Shown: piece by piece, positions 23,952-52,801 of the stretch
Layout: every line of letters starts with the position of its first letter
Position numbering within the stretch: the first letter of the stretch is position 1
NCBI RefSeq assembly: GCF_000702445.1
Contig: NZ_JNIF01000004.1
Coordinates: 992,001 to 1,056,000, forward strand
DNA: 64,000 nucleotides
Reading direction: 5' to 3'
DNA from: Bryobacter aggregatus MPL3
GTDB lineage: Bacteria; Acidobacteriota; Terriglobia; Bryobacterales; Bryobacteraceae
Translations under genes and position numbers: made by a program
The notes under the pieces: generated by a model
Seen by the model: only the letters and a program-made list of their open reading frames with translations
Databases searched by the model: none
What the model was told of the DNA's origin: nothing

Positions 23952-23971
23952 TGAGATCCCCTGAACAGAAA

Positions 23972-23990
23972 TTTGTTGGCTCGCAACAAA
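23972..23990 (-). promoter_or_regulatory. 5'-leader hairpin of TonB receptor 1
   Basis: TTTGTTG and CAACAAA (7-bp perfect arms, 5-nt loop) lie about 20 nt before the receptor ATG in its predicted leader. It could influence translation or mRNA stability; no known riboswitch is recognised. Confidence 0.35.
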
Positions 23991-24107
23991 AGAGAGCCGG
24001 GATCGCAACTAGGCGAAGAACTGCAGGCCTTACTACAGGCCTCAGGTCAACTGAGGTGGGACGGGGAGGGATAACAACTTGACTACGGAGCGGACCCTCG
24101 TGGATGC

Positions 24108-34326: not shown

Positions 34327-35136
34327 CTAGTTGCGCCAGCGCAGATCGATGCGATCGCGATCGCGTCCGCCATTGGAAATTGTAATGCTGCGGACGCGGT
34401 TGCGGTTATCCACTTCGATCTCCATCTCGCCCCGGTAGTTGCTCCCGTTCACATCCGCAATAATCCGATCCCGGTCCATGCGCAGAACGCGGCCGTTGAA
34501 GTTGACACGGGAATTCCGATTGGTCTCGAAGCTGACATCGACATCGCCACGGCGGCCAATCGATACGGTGCAGTTATAGAGCTTCTGCTCGTTCCGGTTC
34601 GTGCGCAGATAGCCATCTCCCCGCCCGTTATAGTTGACCTCGTTGTTCCATCCATTGCCATTTCCGTTGCCCGGATATCGATTCCCATTGCCGTTCCCCG
34701 GAAAGCGCCCGCGATCCCCGTCATAGCCCCCCTGGTTGTAGTCACTACCGCCACGCCAGAAGATGTCGAAGGTATAGCCTTCCTTCCCCGATTTGGGGTC
34801 CTCAATACGGATCACCGCTCCATTCCTGCCGCCGGCATTGCGCACCAGAGTTTGGCGTCCTCGTCCATCCACCCCCTGAAACCGGAAATCGTTCGGATTG
34901 TTCGGCATCACTTGGTTGCATTCAAAGCGCCGGAACGTGGCGGGATTCCCGCTGAGGGTACGAATCTGTGCGCGATCGCCGTTGATCTCGACTTCAGCAA
35001 CATCATCGACTTCCACTTCGATGGTGCATTTCCCATCGCCTCCTCCGCCTCGAATGGAAGCAGTCCTCGAGTCAGTGACGCGCTGAGCGCTCAGAGTAGC
35101 GGCCATCGCCGCAAAGAGGAAAAATTTAGATTTCAT
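34327..35136 (-). CDS. Exported Asn/Gly/Arg-rich protein, function unknown
   Basis: 269 residues with a Sec signal (MKSKFFLFAAMAATLSAQ) and AGGA about 6 nt before the ATG. A central low-complexity stretch (about residues 130-180) is built of NGNGN and YNGRGDG units and separates two beta-rich parts. Such flexible Asn/Gly linkers are common in secreted or surface proteins. No family is recognised. It lies 12 bp downstream of the acetyltransferase gene. Confidence 0.6.
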   Translation of the reverse strand: MKSKFFLFAAMAATLSAQRVTDSRTASIRGGGGDGKCTIEVEVDDVAEVEINGDRAQIRTLSGNPATFRRFECNQVMPNNPNDFRFQGVDGRGRQTLVRNAGGRNGAVIRIEDPKSGKEGYTFDIFWRGGSDYNQGGYDGDRGRFPGNGNGNRYPGNGNGNGWNNEVNYNGRGDGYLRTNRNEQKLYNCTVSIGRRGDVDVSFETNRNSRVNFNGRVLRMDRDRIIADVNGSNYRGEMEIEVDNRNRVRSITISNGGRDRDRIDLRWRN

Positions 35137-35148
35137 GGCAGATCCTGT

Positions 35149-35745
35149 CTATATAGATAAAGCGTACAACCGGGCCGCAATGGTTCTTTTTACCACGGGC
35201 CAATCGTCATCAATCACGGAATAGAAAACACTCGATCGCTGATAGCCGTCTGGAAAGATGTAGTCCTTGCGAAATACTCCCTCCCGAACTGCTCCCAACT
35301 TCTCAATCGCTTGCTGAGATCGCAGATTGCGAGAGTCCGTTCGAAACTGGACGCGCACACAACCCAAGCTTTCAAAGGCGAAGCAAAGCATCAGATACTT
35401 TGCATTCAGGTTGATTGCCGTCCCTCGAAACTCCCTCCCCAGCCAAGTGCCTCCGATTTCTAAGGAACGATTCGGTGGGTCGATCGTCAGAAACCGGGTG
35501 GAACCGGCAATTTGTCTGCTGGAGGAATCCAGAGTAACAAAGGGATACTCGATTCCCTGATCCCGTTTGGCCAAAGCGGTTTGCACCCAATGCTGCAACC
35601 GTTCCGGTGAATCCTGCAGCCCGCCGCGCATGTACTTCCAGATCTCGGCTTCACTTGCCTGGGGCCAGAGAGCCTCGACGTCATTGAGGGCCAAGGGCCG
35701 GAGTTGAACTACGCCGTTTTCAAGCACAGTGGGATGAGGAATCAC
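35149..35745 (-). CDS. GNAT acetyltransferase, RimJ/RimL type
   Basis: 198 residues from GTG 35745; the open frame continues upstream into receptor 2 but that part has no GNAT sequence, and GAGGG lies about 10 nt before the GTG. Motifs: LRPLALNDVEALWPQ at the N-terminus, GTWLGREFRGTAINLNAKY (acetyl-CoA loop region) and NLRSQQAIEKLGAVREG. Cytosolic; the RimJ/RimL group modifies protein N-termini, antibiotics or small amines. Substrate unknown. Confidence 0.85.
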   Translation of the reverse strand: MIPHPTVLENGVVQLRPLALNDVEALWPQASEAEIWKYMRGGLQDSPERLQHWVQTALAKRDQGIEYPFVTLDSSSRQIAGSTRFLTIDPPNRSLEIGGTWLGREFRGTAINLNAKYLMLCFAFESLGCVRVQFRTDSRNLRSQQAIEKLGAVREGVFRKDYIFPDGYQRSSVFYSVIDDDWPVVKRTIAARLYALSI

Positions 35746-35761
35746 AATTCTGAGCTTACCC

Positions 35762-38590
35762 TCAGAACAGGAAGCGGAACCCAAGTTGGACCCGGCGCAT
35801 CTCGTGCCAGGACAGAATCGTGAAATTTGTCCGGTTGAGAAAGGCATTCGTGGAATCAGGAATCGGGGAGTTGAAGAGGTTGGCCGATTCCGCAAAGACT
35901 TCCGCCTTGGCTCGCGGCCACACTCTTTCCATCGAGAGAAATCGAGACAGGCGGGCATCCATCTGCATCGAGGCCGGGCCTTTGCCGACATTGCGCCCGT
36001 AGAAGAGCGGCCGGTCATTTGCGACGGAATCACGATTGAGATCAGCGCCGGCGCGCACATCGTAGGTGGTGCCAGACCGGGCAAACAGGAAGGTGGCCAG
36101 TTGGAATCCGCGCCAACGCGCCACCGAACTGGCGTTCAGTACATGCCGAACGTCCGTGATTGAGTTGCCATACTCGGCCCGCCGGTTGTAGGTGTCCTGT
36201 GGTTGCTCGCTGCCGCCGGAGACACCGTTCTCTGGAGCGTTATCGAGAGAATGGGACCAGGTGTAGGACACATTGAACTGGAGCGCATTGCGAAAGCGCT
36301 TCAATACCTGGATGCCGAGCGCATGATAGTTCGAGTTGCCCGCACTCGTCAGTTCCATGATGTTGTTGAAATTCGGATCGAGACGCCGGGCCCCATAAAC
36401 GGTACGGCCGTCAGCTAAGGGCGGAAGTGAAGAGACCGGATCCAGGTTGATGTTCTGCAGCACAGGAATCTTTGAGCCATGCAAGCCAGCCGCTGTAATC
36501 GTGACACTGAGATCATGAGCGATTTCCCGCACCACACCCACCTGAAACTGATGCACGGTCATCCACTGAAAATCGGGAGAGATGACGCTGAGGCTCGGCT
36601 TCACGCGCACCGATCCGCTATTGACACGGGGATAGAACGGATAGTTTGGGGACCCTGGAGAATCGCCCGCAATCTCGACAGAGACCTCATTGACTGAATT
36701 CTCAATCAGGCTGTCGCGAAAAGCGTTGCCCGAGGGTGCATCAAAATGGACCCCGTAGGAAAGCCGGAACGCCATCCGGGGATTCCCACGCGGAGACCAG
36801 GCCAAGCCGAGCCGGGGTGCAAAATTGTAGCGATCCGAAGGAATCTGCCGGGAAAGCGGGTGGGGCGCATTTGCGGGTGCCGATGGCACGTACATAGTCT
36901 CGTAGCGCAATCCGTAGTTGAGGGTCAGGTTCGGGCGTAGGCGCCAGGAGTCCTGTACATAACCCCCAAGATAGGTCTGTTGGTACTCCAGCCGGGGTTT
37001 CCCGAAACTGAGTGTCAATTGGGTGTAGCTGTAGCGTCGTCCTGTCGAGGGATCGATTTCTCTCTTGATCGTCCGCAGGTACTGCTCGAGCGGCGTGAGA
37101 TCACTGGTTCCGGCAAAGAGAAAAACCGGATTCAGGGAGTCATCGTACATCACTGGTGAGCGAACCAGATTGACTCCCGCTTTCAACAGATGGGTCGAGC
37201 GATGAAAGCTGATATTGTCTGAAAACTCTTCGATTCGCTCCCGGTTTGCAGAGAGATGATCGGGATAGCCAAAGCTCACAACGCCACTGAGAATCGTCGT
37301 TGGCAGTGTGTCCGCATTGGGTGTGAGATAGGGCGTCCGGCGCGAATAGCGGTCGGCGAGCTGTGTGCGAAACTCGTGGGTCAGCGACGGGGTGATCAAC
37401 CAGTTCCACATCGCGGCCAACGCGTAAGTGTTCGTCAGCGCACCAGCAGACGAACTGAGTACTGTCGTACCCCCAGGGGACTGCGCCTCATTGAATTCCC
37501 GATATGTATTCGCCCGGAATGTAATCGTATGACGATCTAAGGGTTGATAATCCAGCCGAACAAGCCAAAGTGTTGGGTTGAATTGACTGGGCAACAGATC
37601 GATATCTTTCTCGGTAAAACCAAGACTCACCACCTGGGCCCGGGCCGCCGGGTCGGTAAATCCAAGCGGAAGTGGAAACGCCCGCCGGCTCGTCTCGTTC
37701 GAAACGAAGTAAAACAGCTTGTCCCTGCGGAGCGCGCCCCCCACCCCAAATGCGCCGATATCCGCATAGGGCTTGACGGCGCCAGCCGATCGGAAGGGCA
37801 CCGCGTTGAAGCCAGTTCGTGAAACTAAGTACTCAAATTGACCATGCAGCGTATTTGTGCCAGACCGCGTAATGTTATTAATCACACCGCCGCCAGTCCG
37901 GCCGTACTCGGCATTGGCCCCGAAGGTCATGATCTGTGTCTCGTCCACCGAGGTGGGACCGAGCCTGGTGACTCGATACGACTTCTGTTGCGAGGTCGTA
38001 TTCTCAAAGCCGTCGATCTGGAAATTCACCCGGCGGGCAAGCCCACCGATATCAAAACGGGGGGCCTCATACTCTCGCGGCCGATTGGCGTTGATAAAGG
38101 GTTGCAACAAGGAGAACTGCAGCTCATTCCGCGCCAGATTGGGCAAATTTCGAATATCCACCGCCGTGAGCGCCCGGGAACTGGACGATTGCGCGACCTC
38201 CACCATCGGCGATTCGCCGGGGAGAGTAATGGTCTGATGTGCCGAAACCAGATTCAATCTGTGTTCGAGCGTCACCAGTTGTCCCGTCGAAAGCGTAACG
38301 CCAGTCATCCGGTAGCGGGCGAAGCCCTCGGCCGCAATCGTGACTTCGTATTCCCCAATCGGCAGAAAGGGGACGAGGTAGCGCCCTTCCTCGTCGGTCT
38401 GGAGCTCACGCTGAAAGTTCGTGTCGAGATTCCGAAGCGAAATCTGCGCCGCCACGAGGAGGGCTCCCTGGGCGTCGCGGACTCGACCGTCAATCTGGCC
38501 CGTATTGGATTGAGTTTGCGCAAAAGCCCAAAGCCCTGCCCAAACAAACCCCACCGCAAAACAAAATTTAGATCGCAACAAGAACTCCAT
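35762..38590 (-). CDS. TonB-dependent receptor 2 with carboxypeptidase-regulatory-like domain
   Basis: 942 residues from ATG 38590 (a TTG at 38602 is also in frame; neither has a strong ribosome site). A Sec signal ends near WAFAQ; then a regulatory Ig-like domain (GQIDGRVRDAQGALLVAAQI, about 35-115), plug (IRNLPNLARNELQFSLLQPF, NFQIDGFENTT) and barrel ending VQLGFRFLF. Same architecture as receptor 1 but shorter. Faces the small repeat-peptide gene across a roughly 180-bp AT-rich gap. Substrate unknown. Confidence 0.87.
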   Translation of the reverse strand: MEFLLRSKFCFAVGFVWAGLWAFAQTQSNTGQIDGRVRDAQGALLVAAQISLRNLDTNFQRELQTDEEGRYLVPFLPIGEYEVTIAAEGFARYRMTGVTLSTGQLVTLEHRLNLVSAHQTITLPGESPMVEVAQSSSSRALTAVDIRNLPNLARNELQFSLLQPFINANRPREYEAPRFDIGGLARRVNFQIDGFENTTSQQKSYRVTRLGPTSVDETQIMTFGANAEYGRTGGGVINNITRSGTNTLHGQFEYLVSRTGFNAVPFRSAGAVKPYADIGAFGVGGALRRDKLFYFVSNETSRRAFPLPLGFTDPAARAQVVSLGFTEKDIDLLPSQFNPTLWLVRLDYQPLDRHTITFRANTYREFNEAQSPGGTTVLSSSAGALTNTYALAAMWNWLITPSLTHEFRTQLADRYSRRTPYLTPNADTLPTTILSGVVSFGYPDHLSANRERIEEFSDNISFHRSTHLLKAGVNLVRSPVMYDDSLNPVFLFAGTSDLTPLEQYLRTIKREIDPSTGRRYSYTQLTLSFGKPRLEYQQTYLGGYVQDSWRLRPNLTLNYGLRYETMYVPSAPANAPHPLSRQIPSDRYNFAPRLGLAWSPRGNPRMAFRLSYGVHFDAPSGNAFRDSLIENSVNEVSVEIAGDSPGSPNYPFYPRVNSGSVRVKPSLSVISPDFQWMTVHQFQVGVVREIAHDLSVTITAAGLHGSKIPVLQNINLDPVSSLPPLADGRTVYGARRLDPNFNNIMELTSAGNSNYHALGIQVLKRFRNALQFNVSYTWSHSLDNAPENGVSGGSEQPQDTYNRRAEYGNSITDVRHVLNASSVARWRGFQLATFLFARSGTTYDVRAGADLNRDSVANDRPLFYGRNVGKGPASMQMDARLSRFLSMERVWPRAKAEVFAESANLFNSPIPDSTNAFLNRTNFTILSWHEMRRVQLGFRFLF

Positions 38591-38666
38591 TGAGAGATGC
38601 AATTGGAACCCAATTCGGTTTCAGGGAATTCTAAGGTAAAAACCCTAAAAAAGAATGAGGATTCAC

Positions 38667-38695
38667 TTGACCTTGTACTATTCCCTACGCATACT
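38667..38695 (+). promoter_or_regulatory. Predicted promoter of the tandem-repeat peptide gene
   Basis: TTGACC (38667-38672) and CATACT (38690-38695) are 17 bp apart, fitting a sigma-70-type promoter pointing at the peptide gene. The -10 element is directly followed by an inverted repeat, so start of transcription would fall within an operator-like site. Confidence 0.4.
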
Positions 38696-38711
38696 TAAGG
38701 TATTCACCTTA
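38696..38711. promoter_or_regulatory. Operator-like inverted repeat TAAGGT-n4-ACCTTA
   Basis: Six-base perfect arms around ATTC, placed immediately after the predicted -10 box. A further copy of TAAGGT lies at 38632-38637 near the receptor 2 start, so both divergent genes might share a regulator (inference). Confidence 0.4.
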
Positions 38712-38772
38712 GCGTTAGGGCTACTCGCTAGTACTCATGTTCTAAGGAATTCATTGGAGGAATTGTAAAGAA

Positions 38773-38859
38773 ATGTTTATCATCCCCGTAACCCCGCCGC
38801 TTCCTGACGATGTGAAGATCATTCCGGTTACCCCCCCGCTGCCGGACGACGTCAAGTAG
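38773..38859 (+). CDS. 28-residue tandem-repeat peptide (Met-Phe plus 2 x IIPVTPPLPDDVK)
   Basis: A short ORF, ATG 38773 to TAG 38857, with GGAGG at 38756-38760 (12 nt before the ATG). After Met-Phe it consists of two exact copies of the 13-mer IIPVTPPLPDDVK. Eight of the thirteen codon pairs differ (for example CCC/CCG, GTA/GTT, CTT/CTG, GAT/GAC), every change at third positions and synonymous, which is hard to explain unless the peptide is translated and selected. There is no signal peptide, leader or Cys. It is proline-rich with an acidic-lysine end, suggesting a binding epitope, a pheromone-like peptide, or a precursor cut after Lys. Function unknown; the next gene on this strand is a membrane protein. 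Confidence 0.75.
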   Translation: MFIIPVTPPLPDDVKIIPVTPPLPDDVK

Positions 38860-38940
38860 TTCGCGCTAGCCATTAACTGAACAAAATTTTCCGAGCCATC
38901 GTAACTCTTTCTGGCGAATACGCTTAAGATGGAGGGAACG

Positions 38941-39627
38941 GTGGCTCGAAACCTTTATGATGTTGTAATTGTCTATGGCCCACTCATCGCATTGCTCTTG
39001 CAAGCAGCGGTACTTTCTCGTTTTTTAGAAGCCCGTAACCGCGACTTCCCGCTCGCCATCCTCTTCTCCCTCTTTCTTTTCCCCCTCACTGTATTCACCT
39101 ACATCCTGAATCTCCGTCCGAACCTGATTCCGATGACCGTCGGCTTCACCCGGGGTTATGAGCTTGCCGATCTCTGTATGCACATCCTGCTGTTGGCGCT
39201 TATGCTCCAACTCATCCGGCAAACTCTTCTCAGTTTAGGGGAACCGGCCTCGGTCACCATCGGCATGGGGGCGGTCTCCGGCCTGATTGCGGGATTGGCC
39301 TATCTTTACTTTGGTGACGATTTTACGAGAATCCGCCAAGTGGTGAGCTTCTGGATGGTACTCCTGAACCTCTATTGGTGGACTCTCCTCCTGCGCAAGC
39401 GCAAAGTCCAGCGCCGTCTGATGCTGCTCAGTACTGGCATCGGACTCATGATGACTGGACAGGTGATTGGCGACGGGATGATCATCCTGGCGGAGAAGCG
39501 TGTCCTCATGTACACCGGGGCTTACTTCGCGATCTACCTCTCCAATTACGCCTGTTCCTACTGTTGGTACAACGCCTTTTCAAGGGTGAATGCCGCGGAC
39601 TCCCCGAACTTGCAGAGTGTTTCCTAG
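38941..39627 (+). CDS. Multi-pass membrane protein of unknown function
   Basis: 228 residues from GTG 38941, chosen because GGAGG (38931-38935) lies 5 nt upstream; the ATG at 38929 would put that site inside the coding region. About seven hydrophobic segments (VVIVYGPLIALLLQAAVL; FPLAILFSLFLFPLTVFTYI; LCMHILLLALMLQLI; then four more), with basic RKRKVQRR between helices 5 and 6. No family is recognised; the layout recalls seven-helix sensor or 7TM-like input modules. It follows the repeat-peptide gene by 81 bp, so the peptide may be its ligand, substrate or partner (inference). Confidence 0.75.
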   Translation: MARNLYDVVIVYGPLIALLLQAAVLSRFLEARNRDFPLAILFSLFLFPLTVFTYILNLRPNLIPMTVGFTRGYELADLCMHILLLALMLQLIRQTLLSLGEPASVTIGMGAVSGLIAGLAYLYFGDDFTRIRQVVSFWMVLLNLYWWTLLLRKRKVQRRLMLLSTGIGLMMTGQVIGDGMIILAEKRVLMYTGAYFAIYLSNYACSYCWYNAFSRVNAADSPNLQSVS

Positions 39628-39694
39628 CGCGTCAGCTTTCCTTTGACCTGAAGAGGGACTCCCGATAGACTGGATGCGAGGATCCTCTCCACGT

Positions 39695-41059
39695 ATGTCC
39701 CTAGATTCTGTTAACCGTCGCTACTTTCTAATGAGCGCAGGCGCCTTGAGTGCCGCCAAAGCGCTTTCTGCTGCTAAACCCGCCGCTGGCCGTGTCATTG
39801 GTGCCAACGATCGGATCAATGTAGGTGTCATTGGCTCAGGTGGCCGTGGCTTCTATGTGGCCCGTGAATTCGACAAAGCCGGCAAGAATGGGGCCAATGC
39901 CCAGATCGTTGCCGTTTGTGACGTCTATCAGAAGCGCGTCAACCGCGCCAAAGAACAGTACAAGTGCGATGGCACGCTCGATTATCGCGAACTCCTGAAC
40001 CGCAGCGATATCGACGCCGTCATCGTCGCCACCCCGGATCATTGGCACGCCACGATTGCTCTTGAAGCGATGGATAAGGGCAAGGACGTTTATCTCGAAA
40101 AGCCGATGTGCCACACCATTGATGAGGCACGGCGTCTGACGGAGACCGTGAAAGAGACCAAGCGCATTCTGCAGGTGGGTTCACAAACCACCTCCGGTGA
40201 CCAGTGGGCCCAGGCGCGCAAGGTGATTAGCGACGGCATGCTCGGCAAGTTGATCATGTCGCAGGGCAGCTACCATCGCAATTCGATCGAAGGCGAATGG
40301 AACTACCCGATCGACCACGAAGCCGGTCCGGACGGCAAGGGCGAGAACTACATCGATTGGAAGATGTGGAATGGTCCGGCTCCCAAGCGCGACTGGGCGA
40401 AGGACATGGGCCAGGACCGCTTCTTCCGTTTCCGCAAGTATTGGGACTACTCCGGCGGCATTGCCACCGACCTCTATTACCACGTGGTTGCGCCGATGAA
40501 CATCTGCTGGGGCGAACCGCAGTTCCCGAGCAAGGTCGTTTCCGGTGGCGGCATCTATGCCTTTGACAAGCTGCCTGAAGATCCCTCGAAGCCCGATCGC
40601 GAAGTGCCGGATACCTTCAGTGTCATCGGTGAATACCCGAAGGGCCATTCGCTCGTGTTGAGCGCCTCGATGGCGAACTCGCAGCACATCCCCGGACTCA
40701 TCCGCGGTCACGGCGCTACCCTGACCATGGTTGAGCACGGCCGCTTCGAAGGCTTCTCTCCCTACCTGACGCTGAAGGCGGAGAAGAGAAACGGCAAGTT
40801 TATCGTTCCCGAACTCGAAGCGAAATTCGAGGGCAAGGACGAGATCAAGATTGCAGTTGAAGAGAACAATACGATGCAGACCCACGTGGGCAACTTCCTG
40901 AGCTGCATGCGCACTCGCCAGAAGCCGCGTCTGGATGTGGAGACGGGCGCTCGCGCCCAGGTGCTCATCACCATGGCTGTTCAGAGCTTCCGTCAGGGTA
41001 AGGTACTCTACTTCGACGAGAAGAACTGGAAGGTTTCCGACAAGCCCGTCAAGGCTTAA
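39695..41059 (+). CDS. Tat-exported Gfo/Idh/MocA-family oxidoreductase
   Basis: 454 residues from ATG 39695 (ATG 39674 is in frame seven codons earlier). Twin-arginine signal [19 protein letters not shown]; Rossmann motif [14 protein letters not shown]; the conserved YLEKPMCHT (EKP) and a C-terminal beta-sheet domain with the [11 protein letters not shown] region. Such exported glycosidase-like or dehydrogenase enzymes bind NAD(P) tightly and act on sugars, often in plant-polymer breakdown. A strong terminator follows at 41086. Confidence 0.9.
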
Positions 41060-41133: not shown

Positions 41134-41487
41134 GTGGCCAAGTCCGTCACTTCTTATTTGTTGCGGCTGAGTTATGCCGCGCGTTCACTGCTACTTGGTT
41201 TGGTCGCCGGACAAGCCGGCGTCTTTCTTGTTTACCCCACCTGGAATAGTCTTGCTTCCCTTCCCTATGTCATTGCTGTTGCATTCCCGGCAGCTTTGCC
41301 AGTGGCCTTATGCATCGCCTTGCTGCAGAAGGCCCACCTCTGGATCGTTCCGCTGTCCGCTCTCATCGGAACCCTTGAAGTCTATTGGATGGGGTTTGAA
41401 TCTCCAACAGCCTTCTGGCTCGCATTTGCGATCTCCACAGTCAGCGGCTGGCAATATTGGCGTCTCCTTCGTACGGTTCCCACTTAG
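41134..41487 (+). CDS. Small membrane protein, function unknown
   Basis: About 117 residues from GTG 41134. The same frame is open from 41098, but that GTG is in the loop of the terminator, so it is rejected; the true start is uncertain and no ribosome site is clear. Four hydrophobic segments are visible (SLLLGLVAGQAGVFLVY; LPYVIAVAFPAALPVALCIA; LWIVPLSALIGTLEVYW; FWLAFAISTVSGW). No family recognised. It ends convergently with receptor 3 (4-bp overlap). Confidence 0.5.
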   Translation: MAKSVTSYLLRLSYAARSLLLGLVAGQAGVFLVYPTWNSLASLPYVIAVAFPAALPVALCIALLQKAHLWIVPLSALIGTLEVYWMGFESPTAFWLAFAISTVSGWQYWRLLRTVPT

Positions 41488-43853
41488 AACCAGATGCGAT
41501 AACGGATTGAAATCGTGCGCGGCTGTACGAGCCGGGTGCCGACGAATGCGCTTTGAAAGTTATAGAGCGCCGTCTGATCCGTCAGGTTATTCACCTGGGC
41601 GCCAAGCTCCCAACGGGCTCGATCCTTCACGGTCTTCCGATAGCCGATTAGCAGATCGTATATGGTTCTGGGGCGTACGCGAGGAGTCCTTTGGTCAAGT
41701 GCAACGTAAGGGAGCAGGTCGGCATAATCAGGGTCTGCTGCAACCTCTCGCGGGTCGGATGGATTGGCCACCAGTCCGGAATCATACCGCCCGCTGAAGG
41801 TGCCAAACCATCCCCGCTGGCTGCGATACGCAATCATCCCGCTCGCGCCGAGCTTCTGATCGTGATCGATCACGAAAGGTCCTTGCGACAAAGCAGCAAC
41901 CGCATCATTCCCAATAAACAAGCCGCCCGTAAACGGCGGGGTCGAGATCGCCCGCGCATGCGTCAGACTGAGATTCCCGGTAAAGCCGCGTCTGGACTTC
42001 ATCTCGATCCTTGCCTCTGCTCCATTCACCCGGATACTGGCCAATGCAATCGGGAAGATGATTCCTGTGTTGAAGAAGTTGTTGTTATCTTGCTGGTTCG
42101 TTGCATCCTTGTGATAGACCGCGCCTGCAAAGTTGATCCAAGTACCCAGGCTCTGCTGCACGCCCGCTTCATAGAAGTTCTGCTTCTCGGGGCGAATGCG
42201 AATCGTTGTTCCGCCAAAAGTCTGCCGGACCACTGGTGGCGCGAGTGCTCCCGCTTCGTCAGAACTGGAGAGCAGCAGATTCTCATTCGGTGGGGTCTGG
42301 TACAGCCGATTGTAAGCAATCCGGAACACCGTCCCCGTCTCCCGCAGATGATACGCAAGCCCAAGCCGGGGTTGCCATTGGGCGCCATGCGTCAGAAAGC
42401 GATAGGAGTCATAACGCAGTCCGAGCGTTGCGGTAAAGCGTCCCATCCGCACTTGATCCTGAAAGAATCCGCTCTGCAAGGCGCCACGATCCTTCGCGTT
42501 AAAGTGGAAGGTCTTGCCACCAAGTGGAAGCGTGTAGTCGGCCAGTTCCGGATCGAAGTTCGGGTCGGTCACGGCAAAGCGAAACTGCTCATGCAAGGGA
42601 TAGTGCTGGGAGTCGACGCCGATACGCAGGTTGTGCCGGCCCCAGATCTTCGAGTAGCGCGCATTCAGATTGATTGTCTTCGCCGTCCGGTTTTGCCATG
42701 CCGTCACTGGTGTATCCCCCGCACTCGGCAGCAACTGCGCACGCGTTGAACGTAGACTGAGATTCGACTCGAAGGTGCTGCTGGCATCGATCACATGCAG
42801 CCAGGTTCCGGAGACACTCAAGTCGCTCAGATCCTGCCGCTGGTCCATCCGGTTGGCTTGTTGTGAGCGAAGATTTGCACTCTCGAAGCCAGCTCTTCCG
42901 CCCATAAACAAAAGCCGGATCGTATCGCGGTTCGACGCCTGATAATCCAATCGCTGGAAGAAGCGTTCCGAGTTTCCGCCGTTATGAAGATTGTCGAGAG
43001 AGACGCTATCGAGATAGCGATGCGTCTTGACCGTCATGCCCATTCCAGACCAGGCAAAGCGCCCCGCTTCTCCCGCCACCGAAAGCCCTTGGCTCAACGA
43101 ATCGAACTGACCCGCCTGTGCATTCCACACTCCAGTAAACTTGCGGCCCAGGCCATGCCCCGAGCGCGTTGTCACTTGTGCGACCGCGCTGACTTTGTTG
43201 CCATACTCGGCCGGAATATTGCCGGTGTAGAGTTCCACTGTCTCGACAATCGACGGGTCAATTGCGTTGGCGAAGGCGCCGCCAAGCTGATCGCTGATCG
43301 GCATCCCATCGACAACGAAGGTCATCTGGTTGTGCGCCCCACGCGGATGGATGCTGCCATTCGCGTTCTGGGCAAAGCCCGGAAAGGTGGCCAATACTTG
43401 TTCCAGCCCTCGTGATCCCCCACTCCGCGCCAATTGGTCAATCGTCTCACGCGACATCTGCGCACGGCTGCCTGTCTGTTCTGGATCAATGTTGGTAGAC
43501 TCAGACCGCTCAACTACAGTTAAGCTCTCACCGCTATGAGCGACTCCCAAAACCAGCACCACTTCTTCCGGAATGTTCGAACGAATCGCGATCGTTCGCG
43601 TGGCACTGGCAAGCTGTGCCCCGCTCGCCGTTAATCGAAACCGTTGCCAGGGCAGGTTCAGGAAACGTACGCCCCCTCCTGCATCGGTCTTGAGCTCTTG
43701 CTGCCAGCCTCCGGCCTCCAGACTCAGTTCGACCTGCACGCCGGGAACGGCAGAACCGGAACTGTCCTGAACCTGGACAACAAGACTGCCGCCTGTCTGG
43801 GCAAAGATCAAGAAAGATTGAAATAGAAATACTAGAGCTAACCTGATAGTCAT
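41484..43853 (-). CDS. TonB-dependent receptor 3 with N-terminal carboxypeptidase-regulatory-like domain
   Basis: 789 residues. Sec signal (MTIRLALVFLFQSFLIFAQ), a compact regulatory Ig-like domain (about 20-105), an easily recognised TonB plug (SRETIDQLARSGGSRGLEQV, QMTFVVDGMPISDQLGGAF, ELYTGNIPAEYGNKVSAV) and a barrel ending SIRYRIWF. It is closer to classical siderophore/vitamin receptors than receptors 1 and 2. Follows the M20 peptidase gene by 47 bp but has its own promoter and an inverted repeat around the start codon. Ligand unknown. Confidence 0.88.
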   Translation of the reverse strand: MTIRLALVFLFQSFLIFAQTGGSLVVQVQDSSGSAVPGVQVELSLEAGGWQQELKTDAGGGVRFLNLPWQRFRLTASGAQLASATRTIAIRSNIPEEVVLVLGVAHSGESLTVVERSESTNIDPEQTGSRAQMSRETIDQLARSGGSRGLEQVLATFPGFAQNANGSIHPRGAHNQMTFVVDGMPISDQLGGAFANAIDPSIVETVELYTGNIPAEYGNKVSAVAQVTTRSGHGLGRKFTGVWNAQAGQFDSLSQGLSVAGEAGRFAWSGMGMTVKTHRYLDSVSLDNLHNGGNSERFFQRLDYQASNRDTIRLLFMGGRAGFESANLRSQQANRMDQRQDLSDLSVSGTWLHVIDASSTFESNLSLRSTRAQLLPSAGDTPVTAWQNRTAKTINLNARYSKIWGRHNLRIGVDSQHYPLHEQFRFAVTDPNFDPELADYTLPLGGKTFHFNAKDRGALQSGFFQDQVRMGRFTATLGLRYDSYRFLTHGAQWQPRLGLAYHLRETGTVFRIAYNRLYQTPPNENLLLSSSDEAGALAPPVVRQTFGGTTIRIRPEKQNFYEAGVQQSLGTWINFAGAVYHKDATNQQDNNNFFNTGIIFPIALASIRVNGAEARIEMKSRRGFTGNLSLTHARAISTPPFTGGLFIGNDAVAALSQGPFVIDHDQKLGASGMIAYRSQRGWFGTFSGRYDSGLVANPSDPREVAADPDYADLLPYVALDQRTPRVRPRTIYDLLIGYRKTVKDRARWELGAQVNNLTDQTALYNFQSAFVGTRLVQPRTISIRYRIWF

Positions 43854-45163: not shown

Positions 45164-48100
45164 CTAATTCGCCGCAACTGCTGCTGAGGCGCCCTCCCCG
45201 TTGGTGATCACCACACTCACGCCCGTGATATCGGCGGGGTTGCCCGAAACCGTAAAGGGCAGAGTCAACGCAAACTGACCACCAAAGCTCTGGCTTGCCG
45301 CACTGGCAAACCAAGCCTGGATCGCAGCCTGCACATTCACCACTACTTGCGTTGCCGTCGTCAGATCCACGCTACCCGCAGCACTAAACGCAATCCGGGC
45401 TTCGCTCAGTTGCCTCGTATTCGAGTAGCCTTCGACGCGAATCTCAAGACTGCCACTCGAGCGAGTGACACGAACCGCAGTAATCACTGGAGCGGCGCGG
45501 GCAATCACGATCGTCCGGCTTGGGCCCGGAGAACTGACTCCCGCAAAGTTCAGCACGCTATCCACACGGATGGTTCCGGCAAGCGTACCCGTTGCAATGC
45601 TTGCGTTTGCATCGGCAAGAGTGACTTGCGTCGACCCGGCTGCAATCGTGAAGCTCATCTTGCGAGTCCCGTTCGCAAAACGAACCGCCGGATCGTCAAC
45701 ACCATGGATGGCGTCCGGAACAAAGCTCAACGTCAATTCCCCTGTCACTGGCACGCCGAAGGGGCTCGCGATTTGAATCGTGAACGGCAAATTCTGATTC
45801 ACACCGCCAGTGCCCGGCAAGCCATTAACAGAAACGCCCGGAGTGCTATCCGTCGTCACCTTGAGGCTGAGGACCTTCGTTGCACGGAGGCCAAGGCTAT
45901 CCGTCACCGTCACCACAAAGCTCTTTGTCCCGATTACGGAAGGCGTGCCGCTGATCCCGCCATTCGCAGAGAAGCTGAGCCCAGTGGGCAAATCGCCGTC
46001 GATGCTCCAACGATAAGGCTCACGGCCGCCCGTTGCGCCAATGGAACTGCTGTAGCTCACTCCAGCACTCCCGTTCGGCAACGATTCCGTTGTGATCTGC
46101 AACTTCTTCACACCGTCCGGACGAACCTCTAAGTTGTAGCTCTTCCGCGCTGTAGCGCCGGTCACATCCATCACCTGCACCGTAACTCCAAACTGCCCGG
46201 TAACGCTGGGCGTGCCGGAGAAGGAACCCGTCGCCGGATCGAAACTCACTCCGCTTGGAATCGAACCACGGACAATGGTCCAGAACAACGGTTGAGAACC
46301 ACCCTCGGCAGCCAGGCCGGCTGCATAGGCTTCATCCACCTTGCCATCTGGAATCGCATCGGTCGTAATATCGAGCGAGCCAGCCGGCTTCACATGCAGC
46401 AGGAATGACTTCTGCGCCTTTGCGCCTTTCGCATCGGAAACGGATACCGAAAGGCTCACATCGCCTGCTTGCGTTGGAGTGCCACTCACGGAGTCTCCGT
46501 TCGCATTCAGCCCGGCGGGAGTGCCTTCGATGCTCCAGCTATACGGAGCCTTCCCTCCTTCTACTCCAAATCCAGCACTGTAGGCTTTGCCAACGATCGC
46601 GTCCGAGAGCGGCGAACCTGTCGTAATCGTCAGCGGCAGATTGCCGTCTTTGATTTCGATGCTCAGCGCTTTGGGCGCCTTGCGTTTCAGATCATCCGTC
46701 GCCGTGACCGTAAAGCCAAAGCTACCCTTCTTGGTGGGCGTACCCTCGATGCTGCCGGAAAGTACATCGATCGACAGCCCCTCTGGCAGGGAGCCGCTCG
46801 TGATGCCGAAGCGAACAAAACCAACGGCGCCGCTGGTGGCCACTGTACTTGCATAGGCCCCGCCCACTGCGCCGTCTGCCAACGAGGTTGTTGAGATGAG
46901 GAAGGGTTGTCCGGTCACCTCAAAGATACAGGAGGTCTTGACCGAGGTCCCCGTGCGATCCGTCGCTTCGAATTCGCCGGTGAATTTACCCGCCTCTTCT
47001 GGCTTCGCGCTGAAGTTCGCCGCACCGGTGGAGGTGGCATCGAAGGCAAACGCGGTCGGCAACGTTCCCGAGGCAAGAGCCAGAGTATAAGGAGCCAGGC
47101 CACCGCTGATTGGGAAGCTGCCGCGTGTCGTCACGCCCAAGGGCAGCGTCAATGTCGCGGGACAGGAGAGCGATAGGGTGGAATTTCCCGCAGCCAGCAG
47201 AATGGTCCGGCTGGCGGTTGCCCCCGTCGCATCCTTCACCTGGAGAGAGAGGGCGAAGTTCCCCTTTGTGAGGGCGACACCGGAATAGCTGCCATCGCTC
47301 GCGAGCTTGAAGCCAGAGTCATTCGGAGCCACGAGCAGTGTCCAGGAGTAGGGACTCTTTCCACCGCCCGCTTCTACCTTTCCGGTGTAGCTTTCGCCAG
47401 CCGTCACCGCGATCGGCCCGGCAGTGAGGATTCGAAGATCGCCATTGGCCACACCGATCGAACACTGGGTCTGCGTCTTCGCGCTGCCCGCATCACTGAC
47501 GGCGAAAACGAATACCGAAGCGCCGAGTGCTGTCGGCGTCCCGCTGATCGAGCCGCTCGCCGGATCGAGTGCCAGTCCAGCCGGCAGGCTTCCGGAAGAG
47601 AGCGAGAACAGATAAGGACTTCTGCCGCCCAACACATTCGCGGCGGAAAGATAGGGAACTCCGAACTCCGCGGCGGCATTCGGGCAACCTAGACGGAAGC
47701 TCCCCTGGAATACTGGCATGGAAAAGCGAGCATCCACGCTCCCACCAGCAGCATCGCTCAGCACCACTGTAAACGTGTAGGTTCCGGCTGTCGTTGGCGT
47801 ACCGCTCAGACGGCCATCTGCAGAAAAGCTCACACCTGGCGTAACACTGCCGGAGCTCACTGCAAACCGGTAGGGAGGCGTTCCCCCAGCAGCTTGGATC
47901 GACTGCGAGTAGCTCAAGCCGACGGTCCCACCGTCCACAAAGCTCGTGGCAAAGTGCAACGGGTCTGTCGTTCCAATTGTGATCGAAAAGCTGCGAGTGG
48001 CAGACTGCTCCATGTAGTCATAAGCAGTCACCGAGAAGGTTGTTGTACCCGGAGATTGTGGCGTTCCTGAAATCACGCCGGTGCTCGAGCTCAGGCTCAA

Positions 48101-51100
48101 CCCGGCAGGCAGACTGCCGCTCAAGTAGTAATGATAGGGAGCGATGCCTCCACTCAGCACAAGCGGCGCGGAATAACTGCTATTCGGGCTGCCAGTGGGA
48201 AGAGAAGTGGTCACCCAGTTCAGCGGAGTGGCATTTGAGATATTGGCAACGCAAGATGCCGTTGTCGGCGGGGGCGAGACTTCATAGTAAATGTTACTGG
48301 AGTCTTGGACGGCGATCTGGTACGGATAAGTTCCACTCGCAAAAGGAGTGCCAGAGAGCATGCCGGTCTCCGGGTTCAGGCTCAGGCCTGGAGGCGGAGA
48401 ACTCTGATAGAGCGAGTAGGAATAAGGCCGTCGTCCCGCACTGGCGATGGCTGGAGAAGTATAGGCCTCTCCGGCAACCAGATCGTTCTGATCGGGGCAA
48501 GCGACGTTCAGAAGGAAGGTCGCGGATGCTCCGCCGAAAATCGTGCAGGAAGTGGAGATTGGCCCATTCAGACCACCACTCACGGTAGCCGTGAAGGTGC
48601 GTTCTGAGCTGCTCGAAGTGTCGGTCCCCATATTCGTTGTACCGCTAATCAAACCCGTCTGTGCGTTCAGCGAGAAGCCCGGGGGTAAGGTCCCGCTAGT
48701 AATAGCGTAAGTCAAGGTCCCACTCAGATTCACGCTCAGTGCAGATCGATATGGAGTGTTGCTGATTGTGTAAGGCAACGGGCAACGAAGCGACGGTGTG
48801 GTTGTGCGCGTTAGCGACACAATCAGGAAGTCGCGTTCCGCCGTCCGGCTGGCGCTATCGACAGCCCGGACGCGGAAATTACTGGTTCCCGCCGTCGTTG
48901 GCGTACCCTGAATGCCCCCAGTGGACGAATTCAATGCCAGCCCATTCGGCAAGTTGCCGCTCACGATCGAGAACGAGTAACCGCTGGTGCCGCCAACTGC
49001 CGACACACCCGAATAATAGGGAACGCCGACCCGTGCCGTCGTCCGTGGACTGGTGAGTTGGATCGGGCTCTGGGTGGTAATGGAGCAAGACCGGTTCACC
49101 GTGCGGGAAGAGACATCACCAGCACGAAGAGTAAAGGTGTAGAGTCCTTCCACAGTCGGCGTACCAGTCACATAGCCGTTCGACGAATTCAAGGTCAGCC
49201 CGGTTGGCAGGCTGCCACCGACAACGGAATAAACAATCGCGCCAAACTGCCCCAGCGTCGCCGCGGAGCTATAAGTCTGCCCCACAATCGCAGAATTGTC
49301 CGGGCAGGTGAAGCTTGTAATCAAGCCAGTGTAGGAGCGCACCGCGGAATTATTTCCACTGTCGACGGCCCGAATGGCAACATTGAAACTGCCAGTCACG
49401 TGAGGCGTTCCACTCAGAACACCGGAAGATGACAGTGAAAGCCCTGCAGGCAGCGAACCATCGCTGACGTCGAAATGATATCCGGTGCCAGTGCCGCCAC
49501 TTGCTGCGAACGAAAATGCCGGATAGGCGATATCAACTACGCCGCTCGGAATCTCTGTCGTCGTAATGGTGACTGGACCCGACGATCCTGACGAGAGAAT
49601 GACAATCTGCACCGTAGCCACTGCCGTGGCGCCGCTGAGATCAGTCACCCGAATCCCGGCAGTATAGGAGCCGCTCGCAGAAGGAGTGCCACCGATACTT
49701 CCGTCACTATTTAAGTTGAGGCCGGGCGGCAGTCCACCCGTCGCGATGGACCAGCTAAAGGTTGGGGTGCCGCCGCTCCGCGCAGAGGGCACTGCACTAC
49801 TGGAGTAGGCCGTACCCTGCACACCTTGCGGCATCACGATGCTTCCAAAAGCAGGCGCAGCATTGATCGTCACCTGGTAGGTCTGACTTGCCGTTTCTTC
49901 GTAGTCATCGTCCACCGTGGCCGTAAAGTTGAAGGTCCCCGTTGTTGTCGGGGTGCCGAAAATAGCACCGGCATTCACCGGGGAGGGCGCATTGAAAACA
50001 CGAATCGTGCAGGTCTTATCCACAACCTCCGAACCCGATGTTCCTCGCATCGTGAAGGTACTCAGACCAGCCGTGGTCGGCGTCCCGGAGAGCAGACCTT
50101 CGCTGTTCAGGCTGAGTCCTGCAGGGAAACTGCCGCTCAGCAATTGAATCCCGAAGGGGTACTGCGCATCAAGCAGAGTCAGTCCGGAGGCATAGTGAGA
50201 ACCCAGTTGCGCGTAACTCTGTGGGCACGCAGCACTCATGCTGAAGCCCGAATATGGGGGCACAATGGTCAGCGCACAATCCCGGTAGACCTGCAGTCCT
50301 GTCGCATCTTCTGCGTAAAGCGTATAAGGATAGCTACCTGCACTCGGCGCGGCGCCGGATAAGGTCCCAGCCGAGTTCATTGTCAGTTGTAGGGGAGGGT
50401 CTGCATTCGTGATCCAAAATCTATAGGGTCCTGTTCCTCCCGAAAGACTCGCTTGAGCCTGAAAGTAACGTCCCGCAACTGGATTGGTGGGGAGTAACGG
50501 ACAATTCGCCTTTGGGATATTCACAACTCCTGGCGGCAAGCTCCCCGTGGCGGAATACCGGTAGGCTCCAATCCCGTTTGCCGACTGGATGACGCCGAAG
50601 TATGGCTGATTCACAGTCCAGTTGGGAAGAGTGGAGGTTGAAATCTGGAGCGGCAGCGAGGTTACCGTGAGATTGATATTCGCCACATTCGATATGGCAT
50701 GATTCGCATCTCTGACATAGAGACTGAAAACATAGGTATTGGGCGCGACGTGAGCGGCTCCGGAGAGAATCGTTCCAGCACTATTTAAATTAAGCCCGGA
50801 CACCGGGGAATACTCATACTGGAATTTGTATGGCGCTACGCCACCATTCACTGTGAAATAACTCGCCAGAGTTACCGAATATGGCGTGTTGGCCACTGCA
50901 TTCGGAAGGCTGCTTTGCGTGGCGGTGAGGGTTGGAGGGGCAACGACGCGGATCGAAAAATTTCGTTCACCGTAGGCAATGGAACTGGAATCAACGGCCC
51001 GCACCGTGAAGGGATAAACTCCGGGCATCGCACCGGAGTCCAGAAAACCACTCACAACGCCCGTAGAAGGATCGATGCCAAGGCCGCTCGGAAGCGCTCC

Positions 51101-51271
51101 TTCACTGATGAACCAGGCATAATTCATAGCTCCGGTGGCTACAAGCGTAACCGGGCCATAGGAAGTGCTCTGCGTCCCATCCGGGAATGTATAGGGCTGG
51201 ATCGTAATCTGCCCAAATGCAGCCGCCACAACAAACAGGCTCGCCAAAACTACCTTTTGAATGATTCTCAT
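45164..51271 (-). CDS. Giant putative-Ig (He_PIG) repeat surface protein
   Basis: 2035 residues with a Sec signal (MRIIQKVVLASLFVVAAAFG). About twenty modules of 85-95 residues, each with LPxGLSL near its middle and ending ISGTPTTAGTYTFTV or a variant, are typical of He_PIG (putative Ig) domains of secreted adhesins and matrix proteins. Cys pairs (CP...CxI) recur in the N-terminal two thirds and may form disulfides. The C-terminal 230 residues are a different beta-sandwich. No LPxTG, PEP-CTERM or T9SS signature is evident. One module near residue 430 is truncated (see findings). Ten bp downstream of the Big-1-like gene, so probably co-transcribed. Confidence 0.88.
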   Translation of the reverse strand: MRIIQKVVLASLFVVAAAFGQITIQPYTFPDGTQSTSYGPVTLVATGAMNYAWFISEGALPSGLGIDPSTGVVSGFLDSGAMPGVYPFTVRAVDSSSIAYGERNFSIRVVAPPTLTATQSSLPNAVANTPYSVTLASYFTVNGGVAPYKFQYEYSPVSGLNLNSAGTILSGAAHVAPNTYVFSLYVRDANHAISNVANINLTVTSLPLQISTSTLPNWTVNQPYFGVIQSANGIGAYRYSATGSLPPGVVNIPKANCPLLPTNPVAGRYFQAQASLSGGTGPYRFWITNADPPLQLTMNSAGTLSGAAPSAGSYPYTLYAEDATGLQVYRDCALTIVPPYSGFSMSAACPQSYAQLGSHYASGLTLLDAQYPFGIQLLSGSFPAGLSLNSEGLLSGTPTTAGLSTFTMRGTSGSEVVDKTCTIRVFNAPSPVNAGAIFGTPTTTGTFNFTATVDDDYEETASQTYQVTINAAPAFGSIVMPQGVQGTAYSSSAVPSARSGGTPTFSWSIATGGLPPGLNLNSDGSIGGTPSASGSYTAGIRVTDLSGATAVATVQIVILSSGSSGPVTITTTEIPSGVVDIAYPAFSFAASGGTGTGYHFDVSDGSLPAGLSLSSSGVLSGTPHVTGSFNVAIRAVDSGNNSAVRSYTGLITSFTCPDNSAIVGQTYSSAATLGQFGAIVYSVVGGSLPTGLTLNSSNGYVTGTPTVEGLYTFTLRAGDVSSRTVNRSCSITTQSPIQLTSPRTTARVGVPYYSGVSAVGGTSGYSFSIVSGNLPNGLALNSSTGGIQGTPTTAGTSNFRVRAVDSASRTAERDFLIVSLTRTTTPSLRCPLPYTISNTPYRSALSVNLSGTLTYAITSGTLPPGFSLNAQTGLISGTTNMGTDTSSSSERTFTATVSGGLNGPISTSCTIFGGASATFLLNVACPDQNDLVAGEAYTSPAIASAGRRPYSYSLYQSSPPPGLSLNPETGMLSGTPFASGTYPYQIAVQDSSNIYYEVSPPPTTASCVANISNATPLNWVTTSLPTGSPNSSYSAPLVLSGGIAPYHYYLSGSLPAGLSLSSSTGVISGTPQSPGTTTFSVTAYDYMEQSATRSFSITIGTTDPLHFATSFVDGGTVGLSYSQSIQAAGGTPPYRFAVSSGSVTPGVSFSADGRLSGTPTTAGTYTFTVVLSDAAGGSVDARFSMPVFQGSFRLGCPNAAAEFGVPYLSAANVLGGRSPYLFSLSSGSLPAGLALDPASGSISGTPTALGASVFVFAVSDAGSAKTQTQCSIGVANGDLRILTAGPIAVTAGESYTGKVEAGGGKSPYSWTLLVAPNDSGFKLASDGSYSGVALTKGNFALSLQVKDATGATASRTILLAAGNSTLSLSCPATLTLPLGVTTRGSFPISGGLAPYTLALASGTLPTAFAFDATSTGAANFSAKPEEAGKFTGEFEATDRTGTSVKTSCIFEVTGQPFLISTTSLADGAVGGAYASTVATSGAVGFVRFGITSGSLPEGLSIDVLSGSIEGTPTKKGSFGFTVTATDDLKRKAPKALSIEIKDGNLPLTITTGSPLSDAIVGKAYSAGFGVEGGKAPYSWSIEGTPAGLNANGDSVSGTPTQAGDVSLSVSVSDAKGAKAQKSFLLHVKPAGSLDITTDAIPDGKVDEAYAAGLAAEGGSQPLFWTIVRGSIPSGVSFDPATGSFSGTPSVTGQFGVTVQVMDVTGATARKSYNLEVRPDGVKKLQITTESLPNGSAGVSYSSSIGATGGREPYRWSIDGDLPTGLSFSANGGISGTPSVIGTKSFVVTVTDSLGLRATKVLSLKVTTDSTPGVSVNGLPGTGGVNQNLPFTIQIASPFGVPVTGELTLSFVPDAIHGVDDPAVRFANGTRKMSFTIAAGSTQVTLADANASIATGTLAGTIRVDSVLNFAGVSSPGPSRTIVIARAAPVITAVRVTRSSGSLEIRVEGYSNTRQLSEARIAFSAAGSVDLTTATQVVVNVQAAIQAWFASAASQSFGGQFALTLPFTVSGNPADITGVSVVITNGEGASAAVAAN

Positions 51272-51922: not shown

Positions 51923-52801
51923 ATGTTCGGTACCGCGATTCTACTGAGCGCTAGCATTTTGCTGGCGCAAGACACTCCCGCTGAAGGCGGCCCGCGACTC
52001 ACGGCCCGCGAGATCTTCTATGGCGCCGCACCGGCCGCGCCCGCGGCCACCCCAAAAGCAACTCCAGCCAAGAAGCCGAAGGAGCCGGTCAAAGAAATCG
52101 CATCCTCTGCACCCAAGATCAGCAACCCCACGCATGTCCAGCCCGATGTACCGGTTCGCCTTGCTACCGACACTTCGACCAATGGTTCCGGGCTCGCCAT
52201 GCGTTGGAGCATTGCGCAATTGTCGCCCGATGGCACCAAGAAAGAAGTTCCCACGACGAAGCAGTTCAAGAGTGGAGACCGCATTAATGTCCGCGTCGAA
52301 GTAAACGACTTCGGATACCTCTACATCTTTGCCCGTGGCAGTTCCGGCAAGTGGAGTCCGCTCTTCCCCTCCCCGCAGATCTCTGGTGGCGACAACCGTG
52401 TCGGTCCGAATCAGGCCTATACCATTCCCGCTGGTTTTGTCTTCAAGTTCGATGACAATCCCGGTGAAGAGCGCGTCTTTGTCGTCTTCAGCCGCAAGCC
52501 GGAGACGGACTTCGATGGCCTCATCTACAAAGTCTCACCTGACCGCAATGCCGCCCCCGCGCCGGCCGGCGCCCCACGCCAGCAAGCTCCCGGCATCATC
52601 CTGGCTTCCAATATCAGCATCGGAGATCCCTTCGTCGATCGCATGAAGACGCTCTATGCGCGCGATCTTGTGGTTGAAAAAGTGGAAGGCGAGGTCAAGA
52701 CCTCCAGCCTCGGCCCTCGCTTTGAACACGCCTCCTATGTCGCTAGCAAACGCCAGGATGATCCCCGTGTGGTTGCCGAAATGACTCTGACACACAAATG
52801 A
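51923..52801 (+). CDS. DUF4384-domain exported protein
   Basis: 292 residues from ATG 51923 (AGGA 8 nt upstream; an earlier ATG at 51914 would overlap that site). Sec signal, then an Ala/Pro/Lys-rich linker (about 25-65) and a DUF4384 domain (about 95-195): FKSGDRINVRVEVNDFGYLY followed by IFARGSSGKWSPLFP. DUF4384 domains often accompany caspase-like peptidases, as here: its stop overlaps the caspase gene start as ATGA. Divergent from the Ig-like gene. Confidence 0.85.
   Translation: MFGTAILLSASILLAQDTPAEGGPRLTAREIFYGAAPAAPAATPKATPAKKPKEPVKEIASSAPKISNPTHVQPDVPVRLATDTSTNGSGLAMRWSIAQLSPDGTKKEVPTTKQFKSGDRINVRVEVNDFGYLYIFARGSSGKWSPLFPSPQISGGDNRVGPNQAYTIPAGFVFKFDDNPGEERVFVVFSRKPETDFDGLIYKVSPDRNAAPAPAGAPRQQAPGIILASNISIGDPFVDRMKTLYARDLVVEKVEGEVKTSSLGPRFEHASYVASKRQDDPRVVAEMTLTHK

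Follow-up and report, generated by a model that had tools for sequence, protein, structure and literature searches.

A Leaderless Two-Copy Repeat Peptide Gene of Bryobacter aggregatus as a Probable Reduced Member of a Gene Family Linked to a Seven-Helix Membrane Protein

Introduction

The window analysed here, a stretch of 64,000 nucleotides from Bryobacter aggregatus MPL3 (G000:C4:992001-1056000, G000 being the window's own genome), contains a minute peptide gene that can probably be read as the reduced Bryobacter form of a family of repeat-peptide genes standing upstream of a gene for a stand-alone seven-helix membrane protein (7TM; Table 1). That tandem peptide gene and 7TM gene form a real module is, in our judgement, very probable. 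Regarding its function, we propose with a probability of roughly 45% that the module consists of an exported multi-copy peptide and a 7TM partner, probably ligand and receptor, and that in Bryobacter a leaderless form with two copies is what is left of it. Most precursors of the family start with a segment resembling a signal peptide and would probably be exported and cleaved into single units; such a unit would most likely bind the 7TM, which as a receptor would relay the signal. Bryobacter would have lost the leader and retained two copies, and their amino acids would stay identical since each unit must fit the same partner, while a predicted hairpin over the 7TM start probably holds translation of the 7TM below that of the peptide. 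A more far-reaching version, which we regard as rather unlikely, sees here the Acidobacteriota counterpart of the pairs of prepropeptide hormone and seven-helix receptor, in which an exported precursor would yield identical Pro-rich peptides for a GPCR-shaped 7TM, one lineage would have been rewired to a two-component protein, and the remnant copies in Bryobacter would co-evolve with the receptor.

TABLE 1. Features of the window discussed in the text, with positions counted from its first nucleotide.
Feature	Position	Strand	Basis or remark
Probable sigma-70-type promoter: TTGACC (38667-38672), 17-nt spacer, CATACT (38690-38695)	38667-38695	+	predicted from sequence
Palindrome TAAGGTATTCACCTTA directly 3' of the -10 element, possible operator	38696-38711	.	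sequence; similar in aligned genus loci by eye
GGAGG, ribosome-binding site of the peptide ORF	38756-38760	+	sequence; GGAG or GGAGG in 6/6 genus loci
Leaderless tandem-repeat peptide gene, MF + (IIPVTPPLPDDVK)x2, stop TAG	38773-38859	+	read from sequence, genus comparison
Repeat copy 1	38779-38817	+	sequence and Tandem Repeats Finder
Repeat copy 2, with 8 silent mismatches to the first copy	38818-38856	+	sequence and Tandem Repeats Finder
Predicted RNA hairpin over Shine-Dalgarno (GGAGG, 38931-38935) and GTG start of the 7TM gene	38892-38948	+	folding
Seven-helix membrane protein (7TM) gene without a Pfam/NCBIfam family; predicted model with helices arranged as in GPCRs	38941-39627	+	start by homology
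Gfo/Idh/MocA oxidoreductase, syntenic neighbour	39674-41059	+	retained in G005, where the locus has neither peptide nor 7TM
Three TonB-dependent-receptor-like proteins with carboxypeptidase-regulatory domains	35762-38602, 20523-24008, 41484-43853	-	window
2035-residue repeat protein, 13 stretches of putative Ig domain (He_PIG, E 1e-157)	45164-51271	-	Pfam
Caspase-fold (Peptidase_C14) and TPR protein	52798-54873	+	convergent with protein kinase gene 54856-56622 (-)

The Peptide Gene in the Window

An earlier, sequence-only reading of this DNA had pointed to a GGAGG, an ATG, 28 codons, two repeat units and eight silent third-position differences between them, and every one of these details was confirmed. 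The open reading frame (ORF) runs from the ATG at 38773 through 28 codons to the TAG at 38857-38859, its full product is MFIIPVTPPLPDDVKIIPVTPPLPDDVK, and the 8 mismatches between the 39-nt halves all fall on third codon positions and are all silent. Given that the synonymous fraction is 0.26, the chance of eight random substitutions all being silent is p ~2.4e-5, and in 200,000 simulated draws of eight the peptide never stayed the same, which supports the earlier claim that the peptide is under coding selection. Tandem Repeats Finder, run on the window at a minimum score of 40, reported 4 arrays, among which the peptide repeat scored highest (100; next 78). A hydrophobic ORF at 38655-38768 was considered as a lost signal peptide and rejected, being out of frame and by eye not conserved.

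Conservation and Variation in the Genus Bryobacter

Absence of the peptide from close relatives had been named beforehand as what would refute the sequence-only reading. Among eight genomes of the genus, the window's included, the 7TM gene is present in six, and five of these six have kept the repeat ORF, with lengths of 22-28 codons, so that this refuting condition did not hold. The encoded peptides are MF(IIPVTPPLPDDVK)x2 in G000, MF(IIPVTPPLPDDIG)x2 in G002, MF(IIPIVLPDVD)x2 in G003, the same sequence plus Q in G007, and MFIIPIVLPDDAIIPIVLPDDTF in G004. The two copies differ by nine silent and no amino-acid changes in G002, by five and none in G007 and by three and none in G003, whereas four silent differences and one Ala/Thr codon separate those of G004. 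The units hence agree within each genome and differ from genome to genome, so that the constancy that had been ascribed to the 13-mer itself is in fact the identity of copies inside one genome. A release of the peptide after its Lys, as formerly suggested, finds no footing in the genus, where this residue is Gly in G002, Asp in G003 and G007 and absent in G004. Four of the five genomes read CTT or CTC at the leucine codon of the first copy and CTG at that of the second, and this recurring split suggests that the duplication of the unit is old. The match within genomes can be explained by selection acting in parallel on the two copies or by conversion with later silent drift, and both alike require selection for two matching units.

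In the sixth genome, G001, a single FIIPIVIGPDMND is left, and both the start codon and the second copy are absent. Since G001 groups with G003 and G004 in the 7TM tree (support 0.70; G007 was too short and left out), its single copy probably reflects a derived loss. At least one lineage thus seems able to do without the peptide gene. In G005 the flanking Gfo/Idh gene is present, and peptide and 7TM are both missing at the locus; in G006 the contig begins at the Gfo/Idh gene, and no 7TM was found in the genome. A GNAT-like gene, named by eye, adjoins the peptide region in G001, G003, G004 and G007; in the window, the TonB-dependent-receptor-like gene at 35762-38602 (minus strand) sits between a GNAT gene (about 35150-35790, minus strand) and the peptide gene.

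The 7TM gene succeeded as a search anchor where peptide queries failed. The first peptide search gave matches at E<=10 in 22 of 101 genomes, of which only G000 and G002 are real and the others have E>=0.058. A peptide-only alignment (A1) run on 237 genomes was insensitive and returned 2 genus members and one weak match; absence in this search means little because it missed three more members of the genus that carry the ORF. Of 11 stretches that a further peptide scan gave, four proved to be the loci of G002, G003, G004 and G007, and the other seven were dismissed as chance matches.

Linkage of Peptide Gene and 7TM Gene Across the Family

A search with the 7TM in 150 genomes of the taxonomic family found homologues in 50, the distant ones with 22-33% identity; their upstream regions, scanned for small ORFs and then for Pro-rich ORFs, contained tandem-repeat peptides. 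A profile search found the protein in 118/237 family genomes and 41/76 genera, and 123 7TM loci were analysed (G231, partial; G163, weak; and G272, without upstream DNA, were dropped). Where at least 450 nt upstream were available, a tandem-repeat ORF that scores 6 or more and whose end lies no more than 700 nt from the 7TM match was found at 77 of 102 loci, compared with 1 of 282 control windows drawn from 47 of the same loci, these locus counts not being independent because the loci are related by descent. At a score of 10 or more, the numbers are 74/102 and 0/282, and with a stricter limit of 420 nt the repeat ORF is found at 68/102 7TM loci. The tie to the adjacent seven-helix protein, which the sequence-only reading had considered, is strongly backed by these counts. 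The remaining 25 loci comprise 10 with an ORF of response-regulator type, 4 with a single unit of the same kind (L078, L093, L221 and L250), G001, and 10 where nothing was recognised.

The reverse direction agrees with this. A 64-residue query built on PPDPW matched in 40/237 genomes, G144 being a wrong-frame match that was dropped, and the 7TM is present in 35 of the 39 matching genomes vs. 83 of the 198 others (Fisher p 1.5e-8, uncorrected for relatedness). Twenty peptide loci were fetched with more flanking DNA: seven have an adjacent 7TM, four have none (L151, L153, L157 and L160), one is a false match, and eight end about 130 nt or less after the match, so that the 7TM comes next in 7 of the 11 loci whose sequence continues past the peptide. 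The L160 locus of G010 lacks the 7TM and has, further downstream, an ORF that by eye is Gfo/Idh-like; in G141 the two genes lie on different contigs. Because arrays often sit at contig ends, as in 8 of the 20 fetched loci, they are easily missed. In the tree, the five 7TMs from Bryobacter (support 1.0) lie next to that of G033 (0.91), a genome in which a precursor on another contig (L155) has a leader.

In 396 genomes of the phylum, with at most 7 candidates scored per genome, the profile found the 7TM in 7, of which 4 are outside the family. Only G088 of these 4 showed a tandem peptide, and its repeat had no match in the other genomes among 200 of that other family, so that the spread beyond the family comes down to one case. 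At locus L118 of G088, two 7TM-like ORFs are adjacent, one recognised by the profile and the other by eye.

Repeat Precursors

Arrays are present at 87 of the 123 loci, with periods of 10-26 residues (commonest 16, at 31 loci) and 1.6-10.9 copies per array (median 3.8). Including the single-unit forms, the number of units ranges from 1 to about 11 across the family, which bears out the earlier expectation of a varying copy number beside the same membrane gene. Neighbouring copies at the 87 loci differ by 1194 synonymous and 137 nonsynonymous changes, corresponding to a dN/dS of about 0.04, a value that is biased down since reading frames were picked by repeat score and that includes a wrong frame at L046; an earlier, smaller set of arrays had given 455 and 60. 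The units are mostly Pro-rich with the frequent core GPxxPPDPW, and among 87 units the motifs GP (56), PPP (39), PP[DNSPQ]PW (32) and PDD or PPDG (19) recur. Examples are the arrays of L072 (VADGPLFPPDPWDKRSVA) and L075 (HGPTFPPDPWDGKVA); those of L028 (ILPTPPPSPYGPG(S)) and L112 (AAGPWPFPDDSAGGNI) are by eye close to the Bryobacter unit IIPVTPPLPDDVK. Beside its two-copy precursor, L098 has a second leader-like ORF (MAKYLTNPKLFAAAAVLF...) that contains no repeats and lies some 480-640 nt before the 7TM; it may be a paralogue whose array was lost.

Of the 73 precursors that could be read, i.e., those with an open frame not beginning at the locus end, 63 carry a hydrophobic 13-mer ahead of the repeats, and the count remains 63/73 when the 13-mer must fall within 35 residues after a possible start, compared with 43% of shuffles of the same residues. 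As the leader was scored by simple hydropathy and shuffles reach 43%, a leader is likely and not proven by hydropathy. The ten precursors without such a stretch are five from Bryobacter, L046, three with an unread stretch ahead of the array and one whose start is short; in the genus, the hydrophobic N-terminal segment is absent from the window gene and from four other members. The earlier statement that the peptide has no leader therefore stands for Bryobacter and probably fails for most of its relatives.

A leader followed by tandem cores in variable copy number is also the layout of multi-core precursors, and the module may alternatively encode a RiPP or a bacteriocin-like precursor, with enzymes encoded elsewhere and the 7TM, which adjoins in most loci, as exporter or immunity protein. 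We consider this unlikely, though it fares best among the alternatives. No modification enzyme was recognised by eye among the neighbour clusters common to at least 4 genomes over 47 distant loci, Cys occurs in just 3 of 86 units, and neither the window peptide nor five precursors (three of them in shortened form) match a Pfam or NCBIfam family, precursor families included.

Slightly less probable still is an exported, uncleaved and multivalent structural or binding protein of Pro-rich repeats, for which the 7TM would serve as membrane anchor or export helper. The arrays are intact, Pro-rich and preceded by a signal-like N-terminus, and they share no common cleavage motif, as dibasic sites occur in 2/86 units and any Lys or Arg in 30/86. 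However, length should be conserved in a structural protein, so the single-unit precursors and the 28-residue, two-unit Bryobacter form count against such a role.

The Seven-Helix Protein and Its Genomic Neighborhood

The 7TM probably starts at the GTG at 38941 and not at the ATG at 38929, since in both G002 and G003 the in-frame ATG aligned with the latter runs into a stop one codon later. The window protein has no Pfam or NCBIfam match above the cut-off (best Pfam DUF2304, E 0.3). Against Pfam, 41 7TM members gave scattered weak matches to 17 families, none with more than 2 members, including MASE3 (1.5e-3) and 7TMR-DISM (0.025) with one member each, and against NCBIfam they matched 13 families, again with at most 2 members each (best 1.3e-3). 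The few invariant columns across the 41 proteins are W, L and G, and there is accordingly no conserved catalytic residue. An AlphaFold2 model from five sequences shows seven helices (pLDDT 76.5, pTM 0.69), the single-sequence model being poor (pLDDT 52.8). With the former model, a Foldseek search of the PDB placed GPCRs first (LYCHOS, a taste receptor, mGlu2), with a TM-score of about 0.5 and, for H2R, a TMq of 0.58 as the highest of the matches shown; however, their E-values are 0.09 or worse, rhodopsins, transporters and designed GPCR-like folds are also among the best 50 matches, and a sequence search of the PDB gave 0 matches at E<=1. The predicted model hence resembles GPCRs weakly, and the fold says "seven helices" more than "receptor". 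A Lys/Arg-rich loop lies between helices 5 and 6, consistent with an N-terminus outside the cell.

Clusters of neighbours, named by eye, include a Gfo/Idh-like gene in 13 of the 47 distant loci, downstream of the 7TM in the six positions shown, an ExeA/GspA-like ATPase in 14/47, upstream of the peptide genes (e.g., L084 and L093), and another protein family upstream of the peptide genes in 6 distant loci. A single radical-SAM gene was seen, at a locus without a peptide. The best hint of a 7TM role in signalling comes from a clade of 10 7TMs (support 0.998) that is nested among the peptide loci and in which an ORF of response-regulator type replaces the peptide upstream (L087, L088, L203-L206, L209, L211, L213 and L224). 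This ORF ends 27-123 nt before the 7TM match and resembles a response-regulator C-terminus; in six of the ten, Pfam domains were identified (Response_reg in 6, PAS in 4, HisKA in 2), and the other four were assigned by resemblance, L206 from a short piece. G187 and G224 contain both kinds of 7TM locus. In the window, an unsystematic look found no downstream signalling partner and no histidine kinase partner of the 7TM.

The most likely mechanism would, in our view, be that the peptide is the ligand of the 7TM. This would fit the adjacency of the genes, their joint absence in G005, the neighbours of signalling type, the exported look of the precursors and the identity of the units. Against a ligand role speak the leaderless Bryobacter form, the orphan peptide genes and the missing common cleavage site, and the lack of an export signal in the Bryobacter peptide is awkward for an extracellular ligand.

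Upstream Signals and the RNA Hairpin

In the genus, TTGAC is aligned in 6/6 loci and a -10-like CATACT or CATAAT is found in 5/6, G001 diverging at -10. The spacing from GGAGG to the ATG of the peptide ORF, 12 nt, is slightly long. The hairpin over the 7TM start is predicted in all six genus loci (z -3.1, -5.8, -8.7, -3.3, -4.1 and -3.6), and it persists in a fold of the window's entire 273-nt leader, with an overall z of just -1.1. RNAalifold reports 23 pairs, of which 3 have two-sided changes, with an unfavourable covariation term of +0.81, and the hairpin therefore shows conservation, not covariation. Among the 47 distant loci 38 could be folded, including L088, which is not a peptide locus; z is -2.0 or lower in 15 of them, and 23 have no marked hairpin. 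A look by eye found no pairing between repeat and hairpin. On the predicted folds, the hairpin is probably a brake on 7TM translation.

Translation attenuators of the erm/cat type are leader peptides, and the arrangement in Bryobacter, with a short ORF with its own Shine-Dalgarno sequence in front of a hairpin that hides the next start, is similar to them. Translation of the peptide, or stalling on its Pro-rich repeats, might thus open the hairpin and free the 7TM ribosome-binding site, and the hairpin in all six genus loci and in a part of the distant ones as well as the short and leaderless Bryobacter ORF would suit such a regulatory leader. This reading is nevertheless improbable, more so than the two alternatives described above. 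In the window, 32 nt separate the peptide stop from the hairpin stem, beyond the cover of a ribosome at the stop, which makes a stalled-ribosome switch less likely; the precursors of relatives are longer, repetitive and exported-looking, and their leaders and as many as about 11 copies exceed the needs of a leader peptide; some peptide genes have no adjacent 7TM; and a marked hairpin is missing in 23/38 distant loci. Ribosome arrest usually occurs at residues next to the stop, and the residues beside the stop differ between species. A chance or decaying ORF without function, for which the missing start codon and second copy in G001 and the missing locus in G005 could be cited, is highly improbable and already contradicted by copies that differ almost only silently in five genomes and by the 77/102 loci vs. 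1/282 control windows.

Likeness to Known Systems and Significance

To our knowledge, many-copy peptide precursors with a partnered 7TM are textbook knowledge for fungi and animals and not for bacteria. The yeast alpha-factor receptor Ste2 is a 7TM. By layout, the closest analogue of our ligand and receptor proposal is given by the fungal Kex2-processed repeat proteins and yeast alpha-factor precursors (PMC7329392), which share with the present family tandem near-identical units, variable copy number, units that are diverse between genera and, probably, a signal-like N-terminus. A seven-helix membrane protein is involved on both sides. In contrast, the present system is bacterial, its 7TM gene is adjacent, the Bryobacter form is leaderless and no sequence relation is apparent; since Kex2 dibasic sites are absent from 84 of the 86 units, membership in the fungal repeat prepropeptides is not claimed.

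In systems of the Agr and Com type, a peptide pheromone acts together with a polytopic receptor kinase. The present module is alike in that a peptide gene stands beside a polytopic membrane protein and that one 7TM clade adjoins a PAS/response-regulator-type protein (HisKA in 2 of the 6 scanned), and it differs in that the 7TM lacks a kinase domain and gives only weak and scattered Pfam matches across 41 members and that the precursor is a tandem array. No published account of such a tandem-peptide/7TM family was found in searches that included PPDPW and its variants and that covered subscription journals in small part, and the gene family is apparently undescribed.

If peptide and 7TM are indeed ligand and receptor, they would offer an entry to the signalling between cells of an abundant, poorly understood group of soil bacteria and a ready list of testable unit peptides from the arrays at 87 loci, and they would raise the question how far back stand-alone 7TM sensing goes. 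Even with another function, the pair merits annotation, given repeats that are kept identical by selection and a 7TM that is present in 118 of 237 family genomes and fits no Pfam or NCBIfam entry. Apart from the module, the window contains a two-copy 27-bp tandem repeat at 34650-34702, inside the span of a minus-strand ORF (34327-35136) without a Pfam match.
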